Virus record (IMG/VR): IMGVR_UViG_3300025138_004750
Coordinates: 1 to 25,232 of that record
Origin: a virus
Direction: 5' to 3' (one strand)
Length of the DNA: 25,232 nucleotides
The notes beneath the pieces are model-generated. The model was not told where the DNA came from and ran no database searches. It saw nothing but the letters and a program-made list of their open reading frames with translations. The translations under genes and the position numbers were made by a program. Below are positions 2,483 to 23,366 of the stretch, piece after piece (positions within the stretch are counted from its first letter, which is position 1; the number at the start of each line of letters is the position of its first letter).

Positions 2483-2616
2483 TGAATAAAAGATTATTAA
2501 AATTATATCTTATATTTTATTGGAATAGAATTAAATATATTTTTATTAAACCGAAGAGATCAAAAAGTGTTAGTTTCATTTATGAAAATGATCTAGATAA
2601 AAAAGATGATAGTTAA
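2482..2616 (+). CDS. small basic hydrophobic peptide, unknown
   Basis: A 44-codon frame starts on ATG 2482, sharing one base with the stop of gene 46 (TAATG), and ends at TAA 2614-2616, overlapping the radical SAM gene by 11 bases. It fills what would otherwise be a 123-base gap in a tightly packed operon. The N-terminal half is aromatic and hydrophobic with scattered Lys/Arg (LLKLYLIFYWNRIKYIFI), which could be an amphipathic or membrane-touching helix. The C-terminal half is charged and ends in KKDDS. No family is recognisable. The coupled start and exact fit support a real gene, but I see no other proof. Confidence 0.45.
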   Translation: MNKRLLKLYLIFYWNRIKYIFIKPKRSKSVSFIYENDLDKKDDS

Positions 2617-3259
2617 ACAACTTGATATTGCAATTACTAATCTATGTAACGCTAGATGTCCACAATGCGATAGAACAGATAAAAATAATATTACAAAGAC
2701 GTATGATTATATACCATTAACACAATGGTCGTTTGAAGATTTTAAAAATAAATTTCCAATAGAAACACTTAACGATGTAGAAGAATATAGTTTTTGTGGT
2801 ACATGGGGTGACCCTATGATGTGTAAAGATATTCAAAAGATCGTACAATATATTATTGATAACTCAAAATCAAACGTATCAATCACAACAAATGGTAGTA
2901 TTCGTAACGAAGAGTTTTATTGGAACATAGGTGTTCTTTGTGGTAAAAGACTTTCTATTGTATTTGATATTGACGGAATAAATGAAGACATGCATCAAAA
3001 ATATAGAAGAGGTGCATCATTAAAAAGGTGTTTGGCAAATATGAGTACATTATCAGAAACACAATCAATTGTATTATCTCAAACAATATTATTCAAACAT
3101 AATCAAGATTACATAGAAGAAATAAAAAAACTAGTAAAGGATAATGGTTCTTCTAATCATGTTTTTTATAGATCAGATAGATTTGAAAATGATGAAGGCA
3201 TATTTACTTTTACAAATGAACAAGGTAAAATAGAACACTTAGAAAGAGCTGATGCCTAA
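2606..3259 (+). CDS. radical SAM protein, core domain
   Basis: The 217-residue product has the radical SAM cluster motif CNARCPQC (C14-x3-C18-x2-C21), which binds the [4Fe-4S] cluster that cleaves SAM. It is followed by SFCGTWGDPMM, in the place of the GGEP motif, and by SITTNGS, typical of the barrel strands. It ends at 3259, where SPASM-type relatives would continue into a cysteine-rich C-terminal domain. Here that domain is in the next frame (3252-3575), overlapping by eight bases. The enzyme probably works with that second polypeptide, and the ferredoxin at 7400 could supply electrons. The substrate is unknown; SPASM relatives act on peptides and small molecules. Confidence 0.85.
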   Translation: MIVKQLDIAITNLCNARCPQCDRTDKNNITKTYDYIPLTQWSFEDFKNKFPIETLNDVEEYSFCGTWGDPMMCKDIQKIVQYIIDNSKSNVSITTNGSIRNEEFYWNIGVLCGKRLSIVFDIDGINEDMHQKYRRGASLKRCLANMSTLSETQSIVLSQTILFKHNQDYIEEIKKLVKDNGSSNHVFYRSDRFENDEGIFTFTNEQGKIEHLERADA

Positions 3260-3575
3260 AATAGATTGTAAATTTTTAAATCATAAAACAAAAACAATGG
3301 TTCAAACAGATGGGTCAGTTTGGCCTTGTTGTTATTTGGGTACTTATAATTGGCGTGAAGATAAAAAAGTTACAGATCAAAATTTGTTTAAAGAATATAG
3401 AAAGACTAAAGACAAACAAAATTTAAATAATCATTCGTTAAAAGAAATATTAAATAGTGAGTGGTTTACTAAAACATTACCAGAGTCTTGGAAAGATGAA
3501 AAGACTTGTGCCAGACAATGCAAATTTTGGTGTACTCAAGGACACGATCCAGCAGAATTAAGGATTAAAAAATGA
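3252..3575 (+). CDS. SPASM-like iron-sulfur domain protein (partner or detached C-terminus of the radical SAM protein)
   Basis: This 107-residue protein reads like the C-terminal auxiliary domain of SPASM radical SAM enzymes. It has C6, then VQTDGSVWPCCYLG with C26 and C27, and a late cluster C86-x3-C90-x3-C94 (CARQCKFWC). The TDGSVWPCC segment is the hallmark: these domains usually show D-G-x-V-x-x-C before extra Fe-S ligands. The ATG at 3252 sits inside the last codons of the radical SAM frame, one base forward (+1), so it is either translated by coupled reinitiation or is a fused gene broken by a frameshift. Its stop overlaps the carbamoyltransferase start (ATGA), so it is still kept in the operon. 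Confidence 0.7.
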   Translation: MPKIDCKFLNHKTKTMVQTDGSVWPCCYLGTYNWREDKKVTDQNLFKEYRKTKDKQNLNNHSLKEILNSEWFTKTLPESWKDEKTCARQCKFWCTQGHDPAELRIKK

Positions 3576-4912
3576 AACAAACTAATTTAGGTATATCAGA
3601 AGGGTTTCATGATGCGTCTGTAACACACCTTTACGGACAAAATATAATATCAGCTTCACACGCAGAAAGATATAGTGGAATTAAAAATGATCGATGGGTA
3701 CATAAAGATCAATTAGCAAAGACACCTTATTATGATAACATGGCATTTTATGAAAATTACTTTTGGAAAAATACTAGAAATTTTTGGAGTGGTCAACCTA
3801 GAGTAAAGTATAAAAGAAAATATTCACACATATTTAAACATCACGAAACTCATGCAGCTGCAGGTTATTATACTTCTAAGTTTAATACTTGTAATGTAAT
3901 TGTTATTGACTCCATAGGTGAATGGGATACAGTTTCTATATGGGAGTGTAATGGTGACAAGATGAAAAAAATCAAGTCATGGAAGTATCCATATTCACTT
4001 GGTTTATTATATTCTGCAATTACACAAAGACTTGGTTATAAACCAAACGAAGAAGAATATATTGTAATGGGTATGGCTGCATACGGAGTACCTAAGTTAG
4101 ATTTAGAACCTTTACTTTACAAAAACAATCACAAAGGTTGTGGTCAAATATTTCCTAATGAACATCCATATGATATTGCAGCTAGTATGCAAAATCTATA
4201 TGAAACAAAACTATTACAATTATTAAAATATACTACATCTAAAAATCTTGTTATCATGGGTGGGTGTGCTTTAAACTGTGTAGCAAATAGTAAGATACCA
4301 GAAAGATTTAATATTTGGATTATGCCAAATCCTGGCGATGCAGGTTCTAGTCTTGGTGCAGCTGCTTTAATAGAAAAGAAGAAGTTAAAATGGAAACACC
4401 CATACTTAGGTCATAACATTTCTAATAAGATCAATCCAAAAGAAGTTGTTAAACATATATTGAAACATGGATATTGTGGTGTTGCAAACGGAAGAGCAGA
4501 GTTTGGCCCAAGAGCATTAGGAAACAGATCACTACTTGCTGATCCTAGATTAGATATTAAAGATACAGTTAATACTATTAAACGTAGAGAAAAGTTTAGA
4601 CCATTTGCTCCAGCGATACTTGAAGAGTTTGCACCAGAATACTTTGAAGGTCGTATGAATAGATACATGCAATTTACAGCAAAGGCAATGCATGATTATA
4701 AATCAGTTACACACGTTGATGGTAGTGCCAGAGTACAATTAGTTGAAATTAGTTGTGTATCTGTTATCAGAGATATTCTAGAAGAGTTTTACGAACAAAC
4801 AGGTTGTCCTATGTTATTGAATACAAGTTTAAATATAAAAGGAAAACCAATGGTTAATACATGGCATGATGCTATGGAGTTTGAAAAGTTATACAATGTC
4901 AAAGTATTTTAA
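3572..4912 (+). CDS. carbamoyltransferase (NodU/CmcH/TobZ family)
   Basis: The 446-residue protein carries the family's conserved blocks in order: GFHDAS at 11-16, HHETHAAAGYY at 90-100, GGCALNCVANS at 230-240, GRAEFGPRALGNRS at 307-320, REKFRPFAPA at 339-348, HVDGSARVQ at 381-389, and LLNTSLNIKGKPMVNT at 415-430. In this family the C-terminal YrdC-like part makes carbamoyl-adenylate from carbamoyl phosphate and ATP, and the N-terminal Kae1-like part transfers the carbamoyl group to a hydroxyl. Phage members have been shown to carbamoylate 5-hydroxymethylcytosine in DNA, but no hydroxymethylase is visible here. It is coupled to the SPASM-like gene by ATGA and followed after 9 bases by an SGNH-like gene. 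Family call firm; acceptor unknown. Confidence 0.9.
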   Translation: MKQTNLGISEGFHDASVTHLYGQNIISASHAERYSGIKNDRWVHKDQLAKTPYYDNMAFYENYFWKNTRNFWSGQPRVKYKRKYSHIFKHHETHAAAGYYTSKFNTCNVIVIDSIGEWDTVSIWECNGDKMKKIKSWKYPYSLGLLYSAITQRLGYKPNEEEYIVMGMAAYGVPKLDLEPLLYKNNHKGCGQIFPNEHPYDIAASMQNLYETKLLQLLKYTTSKNLVIMGGCALNCVANSKIPERFNIWIMPNPGDAGSSLGAAALIEKKKLKWKHPYLGHNISNKINPKEVVKHILKHGYCGVANGRAEFGPRALGNRSLLADPRLDIKDTVNTIKRREKFRPFAPAILEEFAPEYFEGRMNRYMQFTAKAMHDYKSVTHVDGSARVQLVEISCVSVIRDILEEFYEQTGCPMLLNTSLNIKGKPMVNTWHDAMEFEKLYNVKVF

Positions 4913-4921
4913 GGTTATAAT

Positions 4922-5569
4922 ATGATAATAGTAGCAGGCGACAGCAATCACGATCCAAAATATTCTGGTTACAGAAAAAATAATATTACTGTTTGGACAG
5001 ATAAGTTAAATGTTAAAGTAGATAATATTGCTGAGTCAGGTGTGGGGAATGATGTTATATGTGACAATACACTAAAAGCAATAAGAGAGCATGATTACAA
5101 AGTTGATCATGTATATGTGTTTTGGTCAGATTGGTATAGAGTTTACAAAGAACAAAATAGAAATCATGATGTTGAGGCTTACCGTAAATGGCAAACTGAT
5201 ATAGTGCATGGCAGACTTAATGCTGATCTAGAAACACTTATTAATCTAAATCTAAAAACATTCTACACGCTACAAACAGCATTAAAAGAGTCTAATATAG
5301 ATTACACTTTTTATCAAGAATTAAACCCCCTACCAATGATAGAGTATGAACAAGAAATGTTTGCCACTAAATTTATTTTTAATCATCCTTTATTTGATTT
5401 CATCGATAAAGATAGATTTTGGGGTTGGCCTATACTAAGATTTATAGGTGGCAAGAATTTATATGATAGTGTAAAATTAGATGATCTAACAGATACAGAT
5501 AGTCACTATGGTCAAAAGACTCATGACCATTACGCAGAATTTATTATACAAAAAGGTATGGACTTATGA
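4922..5569 (+). CDS. SGNH/GDSL-like hydrolase family protein (paralogue of 7723-8562)
   Basis: The 215-residue protein opens with VAGDSN, matching the GDS nucleophile block (Ser8). It continues with ESGVGND, a G-x-G-N block, and ends with DTDSHYG (Asp193, His195), a plausible Asp-x-His catalytic pair. The protein at 7723 shares the same plan, including V-x-WS-x-W-x-R in the middle and a GWPI...GG-x-N segment, so the two are probably paralogues. SGNH enzymes remove or transfer acyl groups on sugars, lipids or small molecules. It starts 9 bases after the carbamoyltransferase and its stop overlaps the amidinotransferase start (ATGA). No signal peptide is seen, so it should act in the cytoplasm. 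Substrate unknown. Confidence 0.6.
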   Translation: MIIVAGDSNHDPKYSGYRKNNITVWTDKLNVKVDNIAESGVGNDVICDNTLKAIREHDYKVDHVYVFWSDWYRVYKEQNRNHDVEAYRKWQTDIVHGRLNADLETLINLNLKTFYTLQTALKESNIDYTFYQELNPLPMIEYEQEMFATKFIFNHPLFDFIDKDRFWGWPILRFIGGKNLYDSVKLDDLTDTDSHYGQKTHDHYAEFIIQKGMDL

Positions 5570-6840
5570 TAACAAAGAAAAAATATTCTAAGGTTAATAG
5601 TTGGACACATTTTGATCCATTAAAACAAGTTGTAATTGGAAACATTTACGATCCTAAGTTTTTTGATGATCTACCAGATACTAGTATAAGAGATAGTATT
5701 CAGAAAGTTATGTATGAAACTATTGAAGACTTAGATATTATAAAGAAAAAACTTATAGATTTAGGTGTAGAAGTTATTCAAACAGATTCTAAATGGACAC
5801 AAAACGGAAACATTTTAAAAGAAAACTCTTTTATGGAATGGCAAGAGAATAATCCAAATGGTTCATTACCCAAACCAATGATTAATCCTAGAGACAATTA
5901 TATAACAATGGGTGATGAGATATTTCTAACAGACGGATTTTCTCTACATTGTAAAGAAACAGGTGAACACCCATTAGATATGTTTGATTGTAATATTACT
6001 CTATGTAAAGATATGTTTAGTAATTATGTGTTAAATAAAATTCATGATGTACCAACAATGCTTGGACCATTCACGCCACAACTAGAAGGTCAATTTGAAG
6101 ACGGGGTTCCTAATTCATGGGAGCCATCGTGGGATGTTCAAGAATATTTTGAAGCAAATATAAAAAAGCATCCTATTGAGTTTAGCAAATTTCTTTGGTC
6201 AACATGGCAAATGTCAGCTGCATCATTAACAAGACTTGGTGATAAGTTAATTGTTGATGAAGTTGACAAGTCAGGTTTCTTTGATTGGTATACTAAACAA
6301 CGACCAGACACCAAGTACAAAAAAGCAACATGTGCTATTGGTGGCCATACTGATGGTAGTATGTGTTTAGTTAGACCTGGGTTGATTATAGGATCGCCGT
6401 GGATGAAAGAAGATTTCTTTAATAAAACTTTTCCTGGTTGGGATTGTATGATTATAAATGATCCAAATGATTTTGCATCTACAAAAGATTATGCGAAATT
6501 AGTAGAAGATCAATATAATAGAAAAATTAAAAAGAAAGAAAGAATTAATTGGTTTGTAAAAGAAAAAATGCATGACCATAAGTTTGTTAAGTTTGTAGAT
6601 CAATGGTTATATGATTGGGTTGGTATGCAAGATGAAACATTATTTGAAGTTAATATGTTAAGTCTAGATGAAAAGAATATACTAACATTAAACTATCAAA
6701 CAGAAGTACATGATAAATTAAAATCAGCAAACGTAAATCCAATATACGTTCCTTTTAGACATAAAAGATTTTGGGATAGTGGATTACATTGTTTAACATT
6801 AGATACATACAGAGAAGGTGAGTGTCGTGAAATTAATTGA
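5566..6840 (+). CDS. amidinotransferase-family protein (glycine/inosamine amidinotransferase superfamily)
   Basis: The 424-residue protein has the hallmarks of Arg:Gly and inosamine-phosphate amidinotransferases. Near the N-terminus is DPLKQVVIGN. Mid-protein is NPRDNYITMGDEIFLTDG. GGHTDGS follows with His261 and Asp263, and FWDSGLHCLTLDTYREG carries the expected nucleophile Cys409. These enzymes move an amidino group from arginine to an amine through a Cys-amidino intermediate. By eye, the active-site Asp of the family's FDAAD segment (Asp254 in human AGAT) falls on SAAS here (Ser217/Ser220), so the donor or acceptor chemistry may differ. It is coupled by ATGA to the SGNH gene and overlaps the next gene. 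A hydrolase role within the same superfamily is possible. Confidence 0.8.
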   Translation: MITKKKYSKVNSWTHFDPLKQVVIGNIYDPKFFDDLPDTSIRDSIQKVMYETIEDLDIIKKKLIDLGVEVIQTDSKWTQNGNILKENSFMEWQENNPNGSLPKPMINPRDNYITMGDEIFLTDGFSLHCKETGEHPLDMFDCNITLCKDMFSNYVLNKIHDVPTMLGPFTPQLEGQFEDGVPNSWEPSWDVQEYFEANIKKHPIEFSKFLWSTWQMSAASLTRLGDKLIVDEVDKSGFFDWYTKQRPDTKYKKATCAIGGHTDGSMCLVRPGLIIGSPWMKEDFFNKTFPGWDCMIINDPNDFASTKDYAKLVEDQYNRKIKKKERINWFVKEKMHDHKFVKFVDQWLYDWVGMQDETLFEVNMLSLDEKNILTLNYQTEVHDKLKSANVNPIYVPFRHKRFWDSGLHCLTLDTYREGECREIN

Positions 6841-7393
6841 GTTTTGTAAAACATATCATAATGCAGCTACACCAGAATTATGCGAAGAGTTAATTCAATG
6901 GTTTGAAAGCGCTGGTGCAAAAACAGTAAGAGCAAATAGAGACACTAGACAAGATATACAAAAGTGGGTTGATCCTATTACTGATCAGTTGTTATATGAT
7001 AAAATAGAAACTATTAAAAGAGAAACATTAAATTCTTATCTAGCAGATTATCCTTTTGTTTATAGAGGAAACAGAAAACTAGTATCAGAAGAAACTAAAA
7101 TACAAAGAACTGATCCTAAAGGTGGTGGATTTCATAACTTTCATGCTGAGGTATCTCATTATAAAAACATTAGAAGATGTTTGGCGTGGACGATTTATTT
7201 AAACGATATACCAGACGAAGAAGGTGAAACAGAATTTTTATATGAAAAGTTAAGAATACAACCACAAAAAGGTATGATGGCTATATTCCCAGCATCTTTT
7301 GCTTGGGCTCATAGAGGCAATCCTGTACATACAGAATCAAAATACATATCAACAGGTTGGTGGTTATATCCAAAAGAAGGTAAACAAGATTAA
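6827..7393 (+). CDS. 2-oxoglutarate/Fe(II) oxygenase, phage prolyl-hydroxylase-like
   Basis: The product is 188 residues from GTG 6827. The iron ligands appear as FHNFHAE (His106, Glu108; an H-x-E form of the usual H-x-D) and WAHRGN (His162). LAWTIYLND and GETEFLY mark the double-stranded beta-helix core, and KYISTGWW carries the basic residue that holds 2-oxoglutarate. I chose GTG 6827 over GTG 6818 because AGAAGG at 6813-6818 then lies 8 bases upstream, whereas it abuts the earlier GTG. The gene overlaps the amidinotransferase by 14 bases and precedes the ferredoxin by 6. It would hydroxylate a product of this cassette or a protein side chain; nothing in the sequence decides which. Confidence 0.75.
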   Translation: MKLIEFCKTYHNAATPELCEELIQWFESAGAKTVRANRDTRQDIQKWVDPITDQLLYDKIETIKRETLNSYLADYPFVYRGNRKLVSEETKIQRTDPKGGGFHNFHAEVSHYKNIRRCLAWTIYLNDIPDEEGETEFLYEKLRIQPQKGMMAIFPASFAWAHRGNPVHTESKYISTGWWLYPKEGKQD

Positions 7394-7399
7394 AACTAA

Positions 7400-7726
7400 A
7401 TGACTTATATTGTAAACGACAATTGTATTAAATGTAAACTAATGGACTGTGTTGAAGTTTGTCCTGTCGATTGTTTTTATGAAGGTAAAAATATGCTTGT
7501 AATTAACCCCGATGAGTGTATCGATTGTGGCGTTTGTGAACCAGAGTGCCCTGTTGATGCTATTGTTAGTGATGCAGAATCTGGTATAGAAAAGTGGTTA
7601 GAAGTAAATGACAAGTACAGTCAGATATGGCCAAGAATAACAGAAAAAAAAGAACCACCTTTAGATTCAGAAAAATATAAAAATGAAGAAAATAAATATG
7701 AAAAATATTTTAAGGAAAATCTATGA
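7400..7726 (+). CDS. fdxA: seven-iron ferredoxin (FdxA type)
   Basis: This 108-residue protein closely resembles Azotobacter ferredoxin I. All nine cysteines of that protein are present with identical spacing: C9, C12, C17, C21, C25, C40, C43, C46 and C50. By homology C9/C17/C50 bind the [3Fe-4S] cluster and C21/C40/C43/C46 the [4Fe-4S] cluster. Distinctive stretches include [13 protein letters not shown] and [14 protein letters not shown], and the tail keeps [10 protein letters not shown]. It is a cytoplasmic electron carrier. In this cassette it could reduce the radical SAM enzyme or another redox step, though it might also serve host metabolism. It begins 6 bases after the oxygenase and its stop overlaps the next start (ATGA). 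Confidence 0.9.
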
Positions 7727-16624: not shown

Positions 16625-19099
16625 ATGAGGTTTTATACGAACATTGTGCCGTGGGGTAATTCATTACTCTTGCGTGAGGTAGTCAATGGAGAACGAGTTG
16701 CTAGAAAAATTAAGTACTCGCCAACTCTCTATTGCCCTGTTATGCGTGAGACTAAGTTTCAAACGCTAGACGGAAAATACGTTACACCAGTAAAACATCA
16801 AACAATCAAAGAAGCCAAAGAGTGGGTTGAAGCATATAAAAATCAACCACACTTAGTATATGGTAATACACAATTTCAATATTCATTTTTAAATGAAGAA
16901 TACAATACAGACTTTGACAAAGATCAAATTCTAATTACTACAATCGATATAGAAGTCGCTTGTGAGAATGGGTTTCCTAACCCCGATGTAGCAGAAGAAG
17001 AAATGCTATCAATTACATTAAAAAATCAATCAAACAAAGAGATTATTGTATTTGGTTTACACGAATATAAAACAAACAGAAAAGATGTAACTTATATCAA
17101 ATGTAATAGTGAAAAAGATTTACTATACGATTTTCTAAACTTCTGGTGTTCTAATTACCCCGATATTATTACTGGTTGGAATACAGAGTTTTTTGATATT
17201 CCATATCTAGTTAATAGAATTAAAAAGGTCTTAGGCGAAGATGATGCTAAAAGATTATCACCTTGGAAATCTGTACATTCAAAAGATGTATATCAAATGG
17301 GTAGAACTCAAATGGTATATGACATTCAAGGTATTGCAGCTTTAGATTACTTTGACCTTTATAGAAAATTTACATACACCAATCAAGAAAGTTATAGACT
17401 AGATCATATTGCTAGTGTTGAACTTGGTGTAAAAAAAGATGAAAACCCACACGATACATTTAGAGATTGGTACACAAACGATTATCAATCATTCATCGAT
17501 TACAATATTAAAGATGTAGAAATTGTTGATGCATTAGAAGACAAGATGAAACTAATTGAACTATGTTTAACTATGGCATATGAAGCCAAAGTAAATTATA
17601 CAGATGTTCTTGGTTCGGTTAAGTATTGGGATATTCTAATACACAATTACTTAATGAGTAAAGGTGTTGTTATACCACAGAAAAAATCATCATCTAAAGA
17701 TAGTAAGTATATGGGTGCATATGTTAAAGACCCTCAAGTCGGTATGCACAAATGGGTATTATCTTTTGACTTAAACTCTTTGTATCCACACTTAATTATG
17801 CAATATAATATATCACCAGAAACAATGAAGTCTGAACAAACGGTACCTGGTATGACAATTGATAAACTTTTAAACCAAGAAGTTGATACATCACCACTTG
17901 GTGATAACGTAACGATGACTCCTAATGGTGCATTATTCAATACAAAGAAACAAGGATTCCTACCAGAGATTATGCAGACCATGTATAATGATCGTGTAAA
18001 ATACAAACGTTATATGTTGGATGCAAAACAACAATATGTAAATACAAAAGACCCAAAATTTGTTAAACAGATATCAAAGTTTGATAATATTCAAATGGCA
18101 AAAAAGATATCTCTTAACTCAGCTTATGGTGCGATTGGAAACAATTGGTTTAGATATTATTCAAACACAATGGCAGAGGCAATCACTTCTTCTGGTCAGT
18201 TATCTATTCGTTGGATTGAAAAAAAGATTAATGAATTTATGAATGATTTGCTTAAAACAAAAGATAAAGATTATGTAATTGCTTCTGATACAGATTCAGT
18301 TTACATTACATTCGATACATTGGTAGAAAAGTTTCAACCAAAAAACCCTGTGGACTTTCTTGATACAATTGCAAAAGAAAAGATTGAACCTTTTATTGAT
18401 ACATCATACAAAGAACTTGCAGAGTATTTAAATGCATATGATCAAAAGATGCAGATGAAACGAGAAGTTATCGCAGACAAAGGTATATGGACAGCAAAGA
18501 AAAGATATATTCTAAATGCGTGGGATGTTGAAGGTGTTCGATACAAAGAACCTGAACTTAAGATTATGGGGATTGAGGCAGTTAAATCATCCACACCAGC
18601 TGCATGTAGAGATAAGATCAAGGAAGCATTACATATTTTGATGTCTGGTACTGAAAAAGAAATGAACACATTTATACAAACGTTTAGAGAAGAGTTTATG
18701 AACTTACCACCTGAACTAGTTGCGTATCCTAGAAGTGTAAATGGTTTATCTAAATGGACAGAATCACATTCACTATTTAAGAAAGGTGCCCCTATACATG
18801 TTAAGGGTGCAATACTTTACAATCATTTAATAGAAAAGAATAAATTACAAAGTCGTTATCCTTATATTCAAGAAGGTGATAAAATTAAGTTTCTTTATAT
18901 GAAATTACCAAACATATATCAATCTTCTTCTATTGCATTTATGACAAAACTTCCAAAACAATTAAACTTTGCAATTGACTATGAACTACAATTCGAAAAG
19001 TCTTTTGTTGAACCACTAAACTATATCATTGAAAAAATCAATTGGAATGTTGATAGATCATATGGTACTGCTGGAAACCTAGAGGATTTCTTTGTATGA
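16625..19099 (+). CDS. 43: DNA polymerase gp43 (family B)
   Basis: The 824-residue family-B polymerase has the proofreading exonuclease site TIDIEVA (Asp108, Glu110). Its palm motifs are FDLNSLYP (motif A, Asp382), KISLNSAYG (motif B, Tyr501) and ASDTDS (motif C, Asp555 and Asp557). It is shorter than T4 gp43 (898), as in many marine T4-like phages. All catalytic residues appear intact. The start ATG follows GAAGG at 16613-16617 with a 7-base gap. Its stop overlaps the next gene (ATGA), so the modification genes behind it are translationally coupled to the replicative polymerase. Confidence 0.97.
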   Translation: MRFYTNIVPWGNSLLLREVVNGERVARKIKYSPTLYCPVMRETKFQTLDGKYVTPVKHQTIKEAKEWVEAYKNQPHLVYGNTQFQYSFLNEEYNTDFDKDQILITTIDIEVACENGFPNPDVAEEEMLSITLKNQSNKEIIVFGLHEYKTNRKDVTYIKCNSEKDLLYDFLNFWCSNYPDIITGWNTEFFDIPYLVNRIKKVLGEDDAKRLSPWKSVHSKDVYQMGRTQMVYDIQGIAALDYFDLYRKFTYTNQESYRLDHIASVELGVKKDENPHDTFRDWYTNDYQSFIDYNIKDVEIVDALEDKMKLIELCLTMAYEAKVNYTDVLGSVKYWDILIHNYLMSKGVVIPQKKSSSKDSKYMGAYVKDPQVGMHKWVLSFDLNSLYPHLIMQYNISPETMKSEQTVPGMTIDKLLNQEVDTSPLGDNVTMTPNGALFNTKKQGFLPEIMQTMYNDRVKYKRYMLDAKQQYVNTKDPKFVKQISKFDNIQMAKKISLNSAYGAIGNNWFRYYSNTMAEAITSSGQLSIRWIEKKINEFMNDLLKTKDKDYVIASDTDSVYITFDTLVEKFQPKNPVDFLDTIAKEKIEPFIDTSYKELAEYLNAYDQKMQMKREVIADKGIWTAKKRYILNAWDVEGVRYKEPELKIMGIEAVKSSTPAACRDKIKEALHILMSGTEKEMNTFIQTFREEFMNLPPELVAYPRSVNGLSKWTESHSLFKKGAPIHVKGAILYNHLIEKNKLQSRYPYIQEGDKIKFLYMKLPNIYQSSSIAFMTKLPKQLNFAIDYELQFEKSFVEPLNYIIEKINWNVDRSYGTAGNLEDFFV

Positions 19100-19911
19100 T
19101 AGATAAACTGCTAGTTGAACATATAGATAAAACTGTAAAAGATGATTATGTTGCAGTATTATTATCTGGTGGAATTGACAGTATATCAGTAGGTTTAGCA
19201 GCTCAAGAGTGTGGAAAAAAGATCAATGCATACTCTTTTTGCCTTGACAATCAGGTCAGTTATGATTATAATAAGGCTAAAGAGATTGCAATTAAAAACG
19301 GCTGGGGATTCGTTGGAACTGTAATTGATACGAGCAAACTAGAGGAAGACTTTTACAAACTAGTAAACTTAGGATGTGTAAAGAAAACTCATTATGAATG
19401 TGTGTATCCTTTTATGTACGTCTACCCAAAGATTGCAGAAACGTATGTTCTATCTGGTTGGGCTGCAGATGGTTATTATGGAGTGAGTAAAAAAGCAAAT
19501 ATCCATTACAAACATACAAAAGAAAAGTTTGATGAATTTAGAGATAACTATTTCTTGCCCGAGAATACTGCTGGATACAACTGGCACAAAAAAATTGCAG
19601 ATAAGTATAATAAAGTTTTTGTTACACCTTATCTAACAAAGGAAGTGAAAGATTATTTTTATAGTATGGATTGGTATCAATTAAATCAACCTTATCAAAA
19701 GCATCATGTTAGAACTGCTTTTAATATTGGTAAAGATGTTAAGAAACATTTAAACTTACAATTAGATTCTGGTGTCAACTTACTATTTGAAAGACTGCTA
19801 AATAATACTGAAATTAATTACAAAGGTAGAACAAGAGTAATGGATTTAGTAAGAGATTGGCCGAAACAAAAACAAACTGTACCTGCAAACTTGGAGGCAT
19901 TTATATTATGA
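19096..19911 (+). CDS. asparagine-synthetase-like (AS-B domain) ATP-dependent amide-forming enzyme
   Basis: This 271-residue protein is an ATP-pyrophosphatase of the asparagine synthetase C-terminal type. The PP-loop is LLSGGIDS (22-29), and VLSGWAADGYYG (118-129) corresponds to the AsnB SG-x-x-x-D-x-x-x-G block. AsnB relatives adenylate a carboxylate and join it to ammonia or an amine. The glutaminase domain (N-terminal Cys) is absent, so it needs free ammonia, a separate amidotransferase or another amine. It is coupled to gp43 by ATGA, and its 3' end overlaps the cytosine methyltransferase by 4 bases. That context suggests the carboxylate is on a modified base. A QueC-like or tRNA-modifying role is the main alternative. 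Confidence 0.75.
   Translation: MIDKLLVEHIDKTVKDDYVAVLLSGGIDSISVGLAAQECGKKINAYSFCLDNQVSYDYNKAKEIAIKNGWGFVGTVIDTSKLEEDFYKLVNLGCVKKTHYECVYPFMYVYPKIAETYVLSGWAADGYYGVSKKANIHYKHTKEKFDEFRDNYFLPENTAGYNWHKKIADKYNKVFVTPYLTKEVKDYFYSMDWYQLNQPYQKHHVRTAFNIGKDVKKHLNLQLDSGVNLLFERLLNNTEINYKGRTRVMDLVRDWPKQKQTVPANLEAFIL
19244..19272 (+). promoter_or_regulatory. perfect-consensus sigma70 promoter inside the AsnB-like gene
   Basis: TTGACA (19244-19249), a spacer of exactly 17 bases, then TATAAT (19267-19272). Both hexamers match consensus at all positions. It would start transcription near 19279 and express the cytosine methyltransferase, CmoA-like, MazG-like and uvsX genes independently of the polymerase operon. 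Confidence 0.65.
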
Positions 19912-21044
19912 AGTACAAACCATATCTAATGAAAGACGTTTATGCTGGAGAAGCATTAGAAAAATTTAGAGTAATATCTACTTTCGCTGGTGGTGGTGGA
20001 TCATCAACAGGTTACAGACTTGCTGGTGGTAAGATACTTGCAATCAATGAATTTGTTGAAGAGGCAAGAAATACTTACAGAGATAATTATCCAAACACAC
20101 CTATACTTGATGGTGATATAAAAGATTTAAAAGGAGAAGACTTTCTAAAACTTACAGGTTTAAAAGAAGGCGAACTAGATTTATTAGATGGTAGTCCACC
20201 TTGTTCAGCATTTAGTATGTGTGGTACTCTTGCAAGAGAGGGAACTGTACATAGTGATGGGTTTGGAAAAACTAAACAATATTCAGATGGCAAAACAGTA
20301 ACTAACATTGAAGATTTATTCTTTGAGTTTTTAAGAGTTGCTAATGTTATCAGACCAAAAACTATTATTGCAGAGAACGTTGAAGGTCTAACAGTTGGAG
20401 AAGCAAAACAATACTTCAACAAAATACAAAATACATTTGAGGACATTGGATATCAAGTAGTTGCAAAAGTACATGATTGTTCTCTATTTGGTGTTCCACA
20501 AAGAAGACGTAGAGTTTTCTTCATGGGAGTAAGAGACGATATTATGGATCAAGTTGGTTTAAACTTTATGACATTATCATCTTTGTTTCCTACACCAAAC
20601 AATACAATAACAACTTTACAGGGTGCATTTGACGGATTAGAGTATGATCAAGAAGAACTTGAAATGCTTACTACTAAATGGAAAGAAACAGCATACTATA
20701 AACAAACGTGTACATTGATGCCAAGAAATCCAGCAAAGGTTATTACAGGAACAGATTATCATCCTAAAGGATGGCATTTCAATCTTAAGATTGCTTCAGA
20801 ATTTCAACCAAGTCCTACTATTACAGCAATGGGTGCAACAGAAAAAACTGCTGGTGTTTGTCATTGGAATGATGATAGAAAATTTACTTTGGGTGAATTA
20901 AAAAGAGTGACATCATTACCTGATGATTTTAAATTGACAGGGAAGTGGTCACAAAAAAGTGAACGTTGTGGTCGTATGGTTCCTAGTTTAATGATGGCTC
21001 ATCTTGCAGACTCGATGTATAAAAAAGTTTTAAAAAATATATGA
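19908..21044 (+). CDS. C5-cytosine DNA methyltransferase with Arg in motif X
   Basis: 378 residues from ATG 19908, which has GGAGG (19893-19897) 10 bases upstream. Motif I is TFAGGGGSSTGY (25-36), motif IV GSPPCSAF with nucleophile Cys99, motif VI ENVEG (156-160) and motif VIII QRRRRV (198-203), so the enzyme should be active on cytosine C5. The target-recognition region is short. Motif X reads CGRMVP where family members read GNAVP or GNSV: the conserved Asn is Arg356. Substituting Lys at this position is known to let C5 methyltransferases use carboxy-SAM, giving 5-carboxymethylcytosine. A CmoA-family gene follows. Plain 5-methylcytosine remains the alternative product. Confidence 0.9.
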   Translation: MKYKPYLMKDVYAGEALEKFRVISTFAGGGGSSTGYRLAGGKILAINEFVEEARNTYRDNYPNTPILDGDIKDLKGEDFLKLTGLKEGELDLLDGSPPCSAFSMCGTLAREGTVHSDGFGKTKQYSDGKTVTNIEDLFFEFLRVANVIRPKTIIAENVEGLTVGEAKQYFNKIQNTFEDIGYQVVAKVHDCSLFGVPQRRRRVFFMGVRDDIMDQVGLNFMTLSSLFPTPNNTITTLQGAFDGLEYDQEELEMLTTKWKETAYYKQTCTLMPRNPAKVITGTDYHPKGWHFNLKIASEFQPSPTITAMGATEKTAGVCHWNDDRKFTLGELKRVTSLPDDFKLTGKWSQKSERCGRMVPSLMMAHLADSMYKKVLKNI

Positions 21045-21106
21045 TAGAGTTTTTAATAATACTCTTTGTGTGTTTAGTTATGTATAGGTATAAAACAAAA
21101 TTATGA
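21041..21106 (+). CDS. 21-residue hydrophobic peptide, possible membrane microprotein
   Basis: ATG 21041 overlaps the methyltransferase stop (ATGA) and TGA 21104-21106 overlaps the next start. The product is mostly one hydrophobic stretch (FLIILFVCLVMYRY) with a basic tail, which could form a short transmembrane helix. No homology is recognisable. Coupling on both sides is the only support. Confidence 0.35.
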   Translation: MIEFLIILFVCLVMYRYKTKL

Positions 21107-21267
21107 TCAGAGTAGTAAGAAAATTTATAGTTAAACTAAGAATGAAATGGGCAGATATAAGAGGACATCATGGCAAGAAGTGGGATTATGAAGCAGGTGA
21201 ATTTTATATGGGAATTAGAAAGAGTAAGAAGTATGGACATAAATTTAAAAATAAAGAGAGGATGTAA
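21103..21267 (+). CDS. small basic protein, unknown
   Basis: A 54-residue frame begins on ATG 21103 inside the preceding stop and ends at TAA 21265-21267, whose last base begins the CmoA-like start (TAATG). The product is rich in Lys, Arg, Gly and aromatic residues (RGHHGKKWDYEAGEFYMG, then RKSKKYGHKF). Its high positive charge would suit binding to nucleic acid, but no motif proves this. AAAGAGAGG lies near its 3' end and serves the next gene. It and the 21-residue peptide fill the 222-base gap between the methyltransferase and CmoA-like genes. Confidence 0.5.
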   Translation: MIRVVRKFIVKLRMKWADIRGHHGKKWDYEAGEFYMGIRKSKKYGHKFKNKERM

Positions 21268-21959
21268 TGGCTGATTTTACTTTTGCACATAGAGAAGAAG
21301 GTTTTGATAATCACATAGATAAAAGTATTCGTGGGTATCAAGATTTACTAACCGATGTAGTTTCATTGTCTAGATACTTTATTGAAAGTCATACCAACGT
21401 TTATGATGTTGGTTGTTCAACAGGTAAACTAACAGAAGCATTAATTAAAAAGAATAAGGATATTGAAGATGTATATTACCACGGTATAGAAGTTGCTGAC
21501 GGATTTGTTGGTGATATGAAACATAGAGGTAATCTTTTAAAACAAGAATATCCTAAACAAAAAATTCAATTCCTACATGAAGATGTAAGAGACTCTACAA
21601 TGTCTAATGCATCATTAATTACTTCAATATTTACTTTACAGTTTATGTCAATGAAAGATAGAGCACCAATGATTAAAAAGATTTATGATGGTTTAAATGA
21701 AGGTGGTGCGTTTGTCTTTGCAGAAAAAACTATATGTGAGAATGCTAAGTTTCAAGAAATGATTACTTTTAACTTCTATGATTACAAACGAAAGTATTTT
21801 ACTACCGAAGATATTATGGACAAAGAACAAGTGTTAAGAAATATTATGAAACCTAATACTTGGAAACAAATAGAACAATACATGTATGATGCAGGTTTCA
21901 AAGATGTACAACCATTCTGGCGTAATCATATGTTTGTAGGAGCAGTAGCAGTAAAATGA
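21267..21959 (+). CDS. CmoA-family SAM-dependent enzyme (carboxy-SAM synthase-like)
   Basis: The 230 residues align along most of E. coli CmoA: FTFAHREEGFDNHI at the start, SIRGYQDL, VYDVGCSTG (GCS at 49-51), FTLQF, KIYDGLNEGGAFVFAEK, and a C-terminal DAGF...VAVK. CmoA converts SAM plus prephenate to carboxy-SAM, which CmoB uses on tRNA uridine-34. Two SAM/carboxy-SAM contacts differ by manual alignment: Asn132 becomes Ile121 and Arg199 becomes Glu187, although Arg191 lies one helical turn later. It may therefore make carboxy-SAM with a shifted arginine, make a different SAM analogue, or be an ordinary methyltransferase. No CmoB homologue is visible, but a C5-cytosine methyltransferase is two tiny genes upstream. 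Confidence 0.8.
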   Translation: MADFTFAHREEGFDNHIDKSIRGYQDLLTDVVSLSRYFIESHTNVYDVGCSTGKLTEALIKKNKDIEDVYYHGIEVADGFVGDMKHRGNLLKQEYPKQKIQFLHEDVRDSTMSNASLITSIFTLQFMSMKDRAPMIKKIYDGLNEGGAFVFAEKTICENAKFQEMITFNFYDYKRKYFTTEDIMDKEQVLRNIMKPNTWKQIEQYMYDAGFKDVQPFWRNHMFVGAVAVK

Positions 21960-22342
21960 GCAACTTTAAAAAAGTAGAAAAGTTTATGAAAGCGTATGAT
22001 CAAGAAGTTTTAACTACGCCACAATTACCAACATTTGAATTAGCAGAATTAAGAACTGAATTAATTAAGGAAGAATTTACCGAACTTATTACAGCAATAA
22101 ATAAGTTTGATCTGGTAGAGATAGCAGATGCATTGACAGATATCCTATACGTCACCTATGGAGCTGGACATGCAATGGGCATCGATCTTGATAAATGTTT
22201 TAAAGAAGTACACACTTCTAACATGAGCAAGATGGGTAAAGACGGCAAACCAGTAAAAGGCCCTAGTGGAAAAGTAATGAAAGGTGAAAACTATAAAGAA
22301 CCCAATTTAAACAAGGTTCTATTTGGAGATAATAATGAGTGA
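21956..22342 (+). CDS. MazG-like nucleotide pyrophosphohydrolase
   Basis: The 128-residue protein carries the all-alpha NTP-pyrophosphatase pattern: [13 protein letters not shown] (E-E-x-x-E metal ligands) then [19 protein letters not shown] (E-x-x-D-x-x-x-D helix). The tail [13 protein letters not shown] after [17 protein letters not shown] is typical of phage and phosphoribosyl-ATP pyrophosphohydrolase-like members. It would hydrolyse an NTP or dNTP to the monophosphate plus pyrophosphate. That could clean the nucleotide pool, remove an unwanted dNTP or adjust alarmone signalling; the sequence does not decide. It is coupled by ATGA to the CmoA-like gene, and its last 8 bases overlap uvsX. 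Confidence 0.8.
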
Positions 22343-23366
22343 TTTTTTAAAAGATATAATTAAGAGTACGGGCAATGAATATGCTAATCTAGTATCAGAT
22401 GGTGTCGAGTCTGGTGATGTAGAGAACTTTATCGATACAGGAAGTTACATGATGAATGCAATCTTATCAGGTTCTATTCATGGTGGATTGGCAGGTAATA
22501 AAATTACTGCATTGGCAGGTGAATCTGCAACAGGTAAAACATTTTTCTTAATGGGAATGTGTAAACATTTCTTAGATCAGAACCCAGAGGGTGGTGTTAT
22601 ATTTTTTGAATCAGAAAGTGCGATTACTAAAAATATGGTAGAAACTAGAGGAATTGATTCTAAGAGAATGGTTATAATGCCAGTTGCAACTGTACAAGAA
22701 TTTAGAACTCAAGCATTAAAAGTTTTAGAAACATATCAACAAACACCAGAGGCAAATCGTAAACCAATGTTTATGTGTTTAGATTCTCTTGGTATGTTAT
22801 CAACTACAAAAGAAGTAGAAGATACTGCTGAGGGTAAAGAGACTAGAGACATGACAAGAGCTCAAGTCTTGAAAGCTGCATTTAGAGTATTAACATTAAA
22901 ACTTGGTAAAGCAAAAGTACCAATGGTTGTTACTAATCATACTTATGATGTAGTTGGATCGTATATACCTATGAAAGAAATGGGTGGTGGAAGTGGATTA
23001 AAATATGCAGCTTCTTCTATTGTATATCTTTCTAAGAAAAAAGAAAAAGACGGAACAGAGGTCGTAGGTAATATTATAAAGATTAAGAATCAGAAATCTA
23101 GATTGACAAAAGAAAACTCTATGTGTGAAGTTAGACTTACATACGATAAAGGTCTTGACAGATACTATGGTCTATTATCACTTGCAGAGAAATATAATAT
23201 CTTCAAGAAAGTATCTACAAAATACGAACTACCAGATGGCAAGAAATTTTTTGGTAAAACAATTAATGATAACCCCGAAACATACTTTACAGAAGAGGTT
23301 CTAGAAAAACTAGACATCGCTGCAAAGAAAGAATTTATGTATGGAAATGAAGAGGAAAGTGAATAA
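22335..23366 (+). CDS. uvsX: UvsX, RecA-like recombinase
   Basis: 343 residues from ATG 22335, with GGAG at 22325-22328 giving a 6-base spacing; a TTG at 22323 would add four residues. Walker A is GESATGKT (62-69) and the Walker B strand is FMCLDSLG (Asp150). [21 protein letters not shown] matches the L2 DNA-binding loop region and YLSKKKEK the following strand. UvsX coats single-stranded DNA and drives strand exchange for recombination-dependent replication, working with gp46/47 resection. It overlaps the MazG-like gene and its stop overlaps the next start (TAATG). Confidence 0.95.

Follow-up and report, generated by a model that had tools for sequence, protein, structure and literature searches.

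What do three enzyme genes placed directly 3' of the DNA polymerase gene of a marine virus make together? The window, by which we mean the whole stretch of DNA analysed, is the 25,232-base IMG/VR virus record IMGVR_UViG_3300025138_004750, and its source is a T4-like marine phage of an uncultured lineage. A first-pass annotation made from the sequence alone had pointed to three enzyme types clustered behind the polymerase gene, and this was confirmed: the three open reading frames (ORFs) are intact, lie on the same strand and are overlapping or closely spaced (Table 1). To judge from the comparisons below, the locus is very probably a CmoA-CmoX-CmoY DNA hypermodification cluster. The annotation had also proposed a three-step pathway in which carboxy-S-adenosylmethionine (carboxy-SAM, Cx-SAM), an Arg-altered C5 methyltransferase and an amide-forming ligase act together. 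This idea is correct but no longer new, having been demonstrated before with the homologues from Synechococcus phage S-B43, whose key residues are kept here (Yang et al., Nat Commun, 7 Dec 2025; PMC12783734).

According to that paper, 5-carboxymethylcytosine is made first in S-B43 and its glycine amide second. CmoA produces carboxy-SAM, CmoX carboxymethylates cytosine at GC motifs in DNA, and CmoY attaches glycine, the glycyl base (product m/z 343.1) being found in virion DNA. Cx-SAM is the sole cofactor accepted by wild-type SpCmoX, and in the CmoX structure (8YF3, 1.9 A) Arg350 touches the Cx-SAM carboxylate, at a column that holds Asn in ordinary C5 methyltransferases. The same source counts 5,615 candidate CmoX among phage sequence sets (PMC12783734). 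Preprints and most subscription papers aside, no other paper on a phage CmoX, CmoY or 5gcxmC system was found in the full-text literature.

The second protein of the cluster matches the Pfam family DNA_methylase (2.1e-50) and, among PDB sequences, 8yf3 (phmmer, 5.1e-143), and it is 59.5% identical over 99% to S-B43 CmoX (tblastn). We start it at ATG 19908 and regard the TTG listed at 19857 as an upstream extension. The motif X of this protein reads GRMVP, with Arg in the usual position of Asn, and the suspected alteration of a C5-cytosine methyltransferase at its cofactor site is borne out by this Arg356. The features by which a CmoX is recognised in PMC12783734 were found, namely SPPC (residues 96-99) and an Arg in the SpCmoX Arg350 column, and a CmoA gene lies nearby. 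Moreover, the cofactor and catalytic residues Phe25, Glu47, Phe48, Asp69, Cys98 and Arg350 of SpCmoX correspond to Phe26, Glu48, Phe49, Asp70, Cys99 and Arg356 of the window protein, and all six are invariant in 8/8 aligned CmoX. The engineered methyltransferase M.MpeI N374K, in which a basic residue at the motif-X Asn position reportedly permits a C5 methyltransferase to use carboxy-SAM, is alike in that basic residue, whereas the window has a natural Arg, a dedicated CmoA and a subsequent ligase. M.MpeI N374K is also named in PMC12783734.

The third protein shows generic methyltransferase domains only in Pfam. Its best NCBIfam model is TIGR00740 (CmoA, 1.1e-36; next non-CmoA model 1.3e-6), and phmmer against PDB sequences gave 1.8e-28 to E. 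coli CmoA (4iwn), so that the enzyme annotated as belonging to the CmoA family proved to be a CmoA homologue. We call it CmoA-like, since no tested protein is closer to it than the active S-B43 CmoA (56.1% identity, tblastn). Chance resemblance of the three genes is excluded by the Pfam and phmmer E-values. The bacterial CmoA/CmoB pathway to tRNA cmo5U34 likewise has a carboxy-SAM-making CmoA homologue, but here no CmoB was found and the acceptor would be DNA cytosine. The CmoB family had no match in the window or in 12 related records, so the window CmoA stands without its usual tRNA partner, and a tRNA gene paired with its own CmoB was rejected (0/12 related records, 0/1 window).

An ordinary 5-methylcytosine methyltransferase lying by chance beside a tRNA-acting CmoA and an unrelated free-standing ligase would be another account of the three genes. 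It agrees with the usual tRNA role of CmoA, for which the host may provide CmoB, and with the NCBI name of the methyltransferase, plain dcm superfamily; nevertheless it is very unlikely in view of the missing CmoB matches, of the restriction of wild-type SpCmoX to Cx-SAM (PMC12783734) and of the association of CmoA with Arg-type methyltransferases.

The co-occurrence of CmoA with methyltransferases carrying Arg in motif X had been set beforehand as a test, and its outcome was positive. Viral loci were gathered by methyltransferase queries (78, and 64 new ones from the best 80 of a second query), and counts skip loci in which the methyltransferase does not reach 1e-10 or has a gap in the Arg350 column. 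CmoA was present in the locus of 74 of the 79 distinct viral Arg-type methyltransferases among the matches listed; loci fetched through CmoA itself (best 80 listed) are biased and do not enter this count. Where the contig extends by at least 1.5 kb to both sides, the proportion was 42/42, again among the matches listed. The control consisted of 80 loci fetched with an Asn-type phage methyltransferase query and examined with 6 kb flanks; 52 distinct methyltransferases were readable (45 Asn, 6 Met and 1 Glu in the Arg350 column), and none of their loci had CmoA. On bacterial genome contigs, CmoA was found at 35 of 38 Arg-type loci as against 1 of 25 others, this lone case (locus L372) being a doubtful alignment.

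Several observations speak against the assignment of the locus to this pathway. At 25 kb, the window is a fragment. The TIGR00740 score of its CmoA is 126.7 bits against a curated cut-off of 193.3, which misses the equivalog threshold, and Glu occupies the column of E. coli CmoA Arg199, a residue that we take to be a carboxylate contact; the same column holds Glu also in the active S-B43 CmoA. CmoA is absent from 5 of the 79 viral Arg-type loci, all on contigs ending early on one side, and from the bacterial Arg-type locus L309, where there is room for it and a ligase is present. In addition, most of the viral Arg-type loci come from close kin of the window; the association is strong, but the counts do not stand for 79 independent events.

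Bacterial CmoX-CmoA pairs were seen in metagenome-assembled genomes of Verrucomicrobia (JAKQDD, 6 loci; JAOSKK, 5 Arg-type; JABTUJ, 3), and also in Bacteroidota, Nonomuraea, Streptomyces and Endozoicomonas (within L309-L372). Ten neighbouring proteins selected from the 64 bacterial loci fetched were scanned; for 8 of them a terminase large subunit came out as the top PHROG, so these loci look like prophages, and the idea of a system that belongs to bacteria and not to phages was rejected. The remaining two were an epimerase (L337) and a peptidase (L309). Met in the Arg350 column (GMSVP), a variant of the cofactor site, was seen at 25 loci (6 viral and 19 bacterial, e.g. L346, L350 and L367), with CmoA in none.

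Some phage records depart from the usual pairing. In two Staphylococcus phages (L084:4947-6646 and L091:4950-7468) CmoA adjoins a C5 methyltransferase with motif X GGVIN, having by alignment Gly and no Arg in the Arg350 column; on this sequence it is possibly a CmoX that would slip past an Arg350 filter. Alcaligenes phage Afa-NA1 (L093:4917-9461) has CmoA (TIGR00740, 4.1e-38), no C5 methyltransferase match in its 78 kb record, and a D12-class N6-adenine methyltransferase approximately 2.5 kb downstream, which makes it a candidate for adenine carboxymethylation. A preliminary search for adenine carboxymethylation found none, according to PMC12783734. Record L228 (35 kb) contains CmoA and nowhere along its length a match to a C5 methyltransferase; its CmoX may be outside. 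In the CmoX-like protein of Erwinia phage pEa_SNUABM_5 (L085:22053-24158) SPP is separated from the catalytic Cys by a large insert, which is intein-like in its position.

The first protein of the cluster matches Asn_synthase in Pfam (7e-10), together with a sub-threshold QueC match only. Of the AsnB-like enzyme that had been annotated, the asparagine-synthetase-type domain therefore stands, while a complete AsnB (glutamine-hydrolysing asparagine synthetase B) was ruled out, since the N-terminal glutaminase domain is absent. It is 46.7% identical over 97% to the S-B43 CmoY gene product (tblastn), a stand-alone ligase of equal length, 271 residues. Fold comparison of an AlphaFold model (13-row alignment, mean predicted local distance difference test score 87.4) gave Z 22.9 with human asparagine synthetase 9b6c_B (250 residues aligned, root-mean-square deviation 2.7) and Z 22.8 with beta-lactam synthetase 1mbz_A, and the eight top matches are asparagine, beta-lactam and carbapenam synthetases (Z 20-23, 241-254 residues). 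CmoY shares with these enzymes the synthetase fold and the SGGxDS loop, here SGGIDS, which we take to be the ATP-pyrophosphatase loop. It differs from them in having no glutaminase half, and the S-B43 enzyme acts on a DNA base (PMC12783734).

The amide step of AsnB type that had been proposed holds insofar as the S-B43 homologues turn a carboxylate into an amide, and fails insofar as the tested CmoY joins glycine and not ammonia (PMC12783734). As the last step, the joining of glycine (or of a different amino acid) is more likely than simple amidation. The same pathway with a CmoY from a swapped-in clade that uses an amine other than glycine, be it another amino acid, a polyamine or ammonia, is somewhat improbable, though it has to be taken seriously. 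The window CmoY is just 46.7% identical to the tested SpCmoY, its gene looks exchanged independently of its neighbours (see below), and alternative amines were inferred for other ligase clusters, among which a glutaminase type is reported (PMC12783734); yet 13/13 aligned stand-alone CmoY share the same invariant positions, including Lys96-Lys97 and Ser131-Lys132-Lys133, the SKKA stretch is present in SpCmoY too, and the missing glutaminase domain speaks against ammonia derived from glutamine.

In the preferred pathway, the window CmoA would make carboxy-SAM from SAM and prephenate of the host. CmoX would then place a carboxymethyl group onto C5 of DNA cytosine after replication, with Arg356 gripping the carboxylate, and CmoY would activate this carboxylate with ATP and couple a small amine to it. 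This amine is most likely an amino acid, glycine or a different one. The resulting bulky charged base probably protects the phage DNA against nucleases. For the window virus we infer the enzyme activities, the amine and the sequence preference, which in S-B43 is for a GC motif.

The ligase gene has a history of its own among the relatives of the window. Identities were compared for 24 of the 78 fetched loci, and trees and approximately unbiased (AU) tests were made with 15 of them chosen for long polymerase and CmoY sequences. Besides the identical L002, CmoX is at least 88% identical to that of the window in 15 of the 24 compared loci, and among those 15 the CmoY identity to the window is 42-48% in 12 and 79-81% in 3. 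Locus L007 shares with the window 88% in polymerase, 87% in uvsX and 94% in CmoX, but only 46% in CmoY; at third codon positions the values are 67, 66, 81 and 46%, respectively. The window groups with L007, L010 and L034 in the polymerase tree and with L017, L021 and L022 in the CmoY tree, and L013 shows the opposite pattern. For CmoY, the AU tests rejected a grouping with the polymerase sisters (window, p 5.7e-65; L013, p 7.7e-11); for the polymerase, they rejected a grouping with the CmoY sisters (p 6.9e-8 and 1.2e-4, in the same order). CmoY is short, and the trees were already known when the groups were defined, but the likelihood gaps are >200 units each. It looks as if the ligase gene was exchanged between close relatives, independently of its neighbours. 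Such exchange within a lineage was not met in the accessible text of PMC12783734 (0 occurrences of "horizontal") and may be new beyond the published pathway.

Other arrangements were seen in the 28 loci inspected. A 468-residue glutaminase-plus-synthetase protein (domains from a Pfam run on L067 alone) replaces CmoY in L049, L052, L053, L067 and L074, and the interval between polymerase and CmoX is empty in L051, L057, L058, L068, L070, L071, L073 and L075. With 3 kb on both sides, a stand-alone ligase lies at most 4 kb away in 25 of 30 distinct loci and is found in none of the other 5. A tentative and rather doubtful suggestion is that the ligase is a swappable cassette within one lineage of T4-like marine phages, the carboxymethylation core remaining constant while recombination exchanges the capping enzyme. 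Close relatives would then bear different amines on the same cytosines and so evade host nucleases adapted to a single cap.

Proteins of 348-455 residues stand beside the ligase or CmoX in some relatives (L067:5410-6555, L056:3569-4936, L054:2347-3444 and L063:294-1340). That of L063 gives a weak ParB_N match under the cut-off, and the other three are ParB-like by eye only; PMC12783734 also notes ParBc proteins of unknown role. A gene of the IMP dehydrogenase/GMP reductase family (1e-70) lies just 3' of CmoA in some relatives, e.g. L058:10445-11512.

Table 1. Positions in the window of the modification genes, of selected codons and of adjoining genes
Feature	Position	Strand	Basis or remark
Family-B DNA polymerase gene	16625-19099		Directly 5' of the three genes
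CmoY-like ATP-dependent amide ligase, 271 aa, a stand-alone asparagine-synthetase domain without glutaminase	19096-19911	+	Pfam, tblastn, AlphaFold fold match
SGGIDS motif codons, residues 24-29 of the ligase	19165-19182	+	Read from the translation
CmoX-like DNA cytosine C5-carboxymethyltransferase, 378 aa	19908-21044	+	Pfam, phmmer, S-B43 identity
Catalytic Cys99 codon in SPPC (Cys98 of SpCmoX)	20202-20204	+	Alignment; role from PMC12783734
Arg356 codon (SpCmoX Arg350 column)	20973-20975	+	Alignment; role from PMC12783734
Small ORF, 54 aa, between the CmoX and CmoA genes	21103-21267	+	May fall outside the system
CmoA-like carboxy-SAM synthase, 230 aa	21267-21959	+	NCBIfam, phmmer, S-B43 identity
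MazG-like gene	21956-22342		After the CmoA-like gene
uvsX-like gene	22323-23366		After the MazG-like gene

The gene order in the window, cmoY-cmoX-cmoA between the polymerase and uvsX-like genes, differs from that of S-B43, where cmoA-cmoY-cmoX adjoin a primase-helicase and a pyrophosphatase gene, although the same three enzymes are clustered in both and the catalytic and carboxylate-binding residues of CmoX are shared. The gap between the CmoX and CmoA genes (21044-21267) holds two very small ORFs. The names 43 and uvsX are our assumption, taken in part from the annotated layout of phage S-CRM01 and from the polymerase matches. The interval between these genes, where according to the first-pass annotation T4 has gene 42 and beta-gt, could suggest modification before polymerisation as in T4 (dCMP hydroxymethylase type), with the three enzymes acting elsewhere. 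Gene 42 belongs to the thymidylate-synthase family, but a match to this family was found in 0/12 related records, two being complete phage genomes, and a route of gene-42 type was rejected. The S-B43 C5 methyltransferase, moreover, acts on DNA (PMC12783734), and the T4-style route is hardly credible.

By polymerase, the closest isolate is Methylophilales phage Melnitz (63.8%). Methylophilales phage Melnitz-3 (L087:1-10188) has, 3' of its polymerase gene, a Tet_JBP oxygenase (3.6e-11) and a C5 methyltransferase in which Leu occupies the Arg350 column, a RimK-like ATP-grasp gene upstream and no CmoA match; a different cytosine route seems to fill the same place.

Elsewhere in the window, a gene run at 2606-7726 encodes a radical SAM protein, a NodU-type carbamoyltransferase, a 2-oxoglutarate oxygenase, a ferredoxin-like protein and, by eye only and with no Pfam or NCBIfam match, an amidinotransferase-like protein. 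The carbamoyltransferase (3572-4912) was examined as a further hypermodification gene of the window and no link to DNA modification was found; it occurs in 10/20 related records searched and also in many cyanophages (144 records).

A proven hypermodification, in print from one phage and from database counts, is extended by this locus to an uncultured marine lineage. The comparison of Arg-type with Asn-type methyltransferases provides an independent control for the rule that Arg in motif X predicts the use of carboxy-SAM. In addition, the swapping of ligases among sister phages suggests diversifying pressure on the chemical cap, and the swapped ligases offer a testable natural set with different possible amines.

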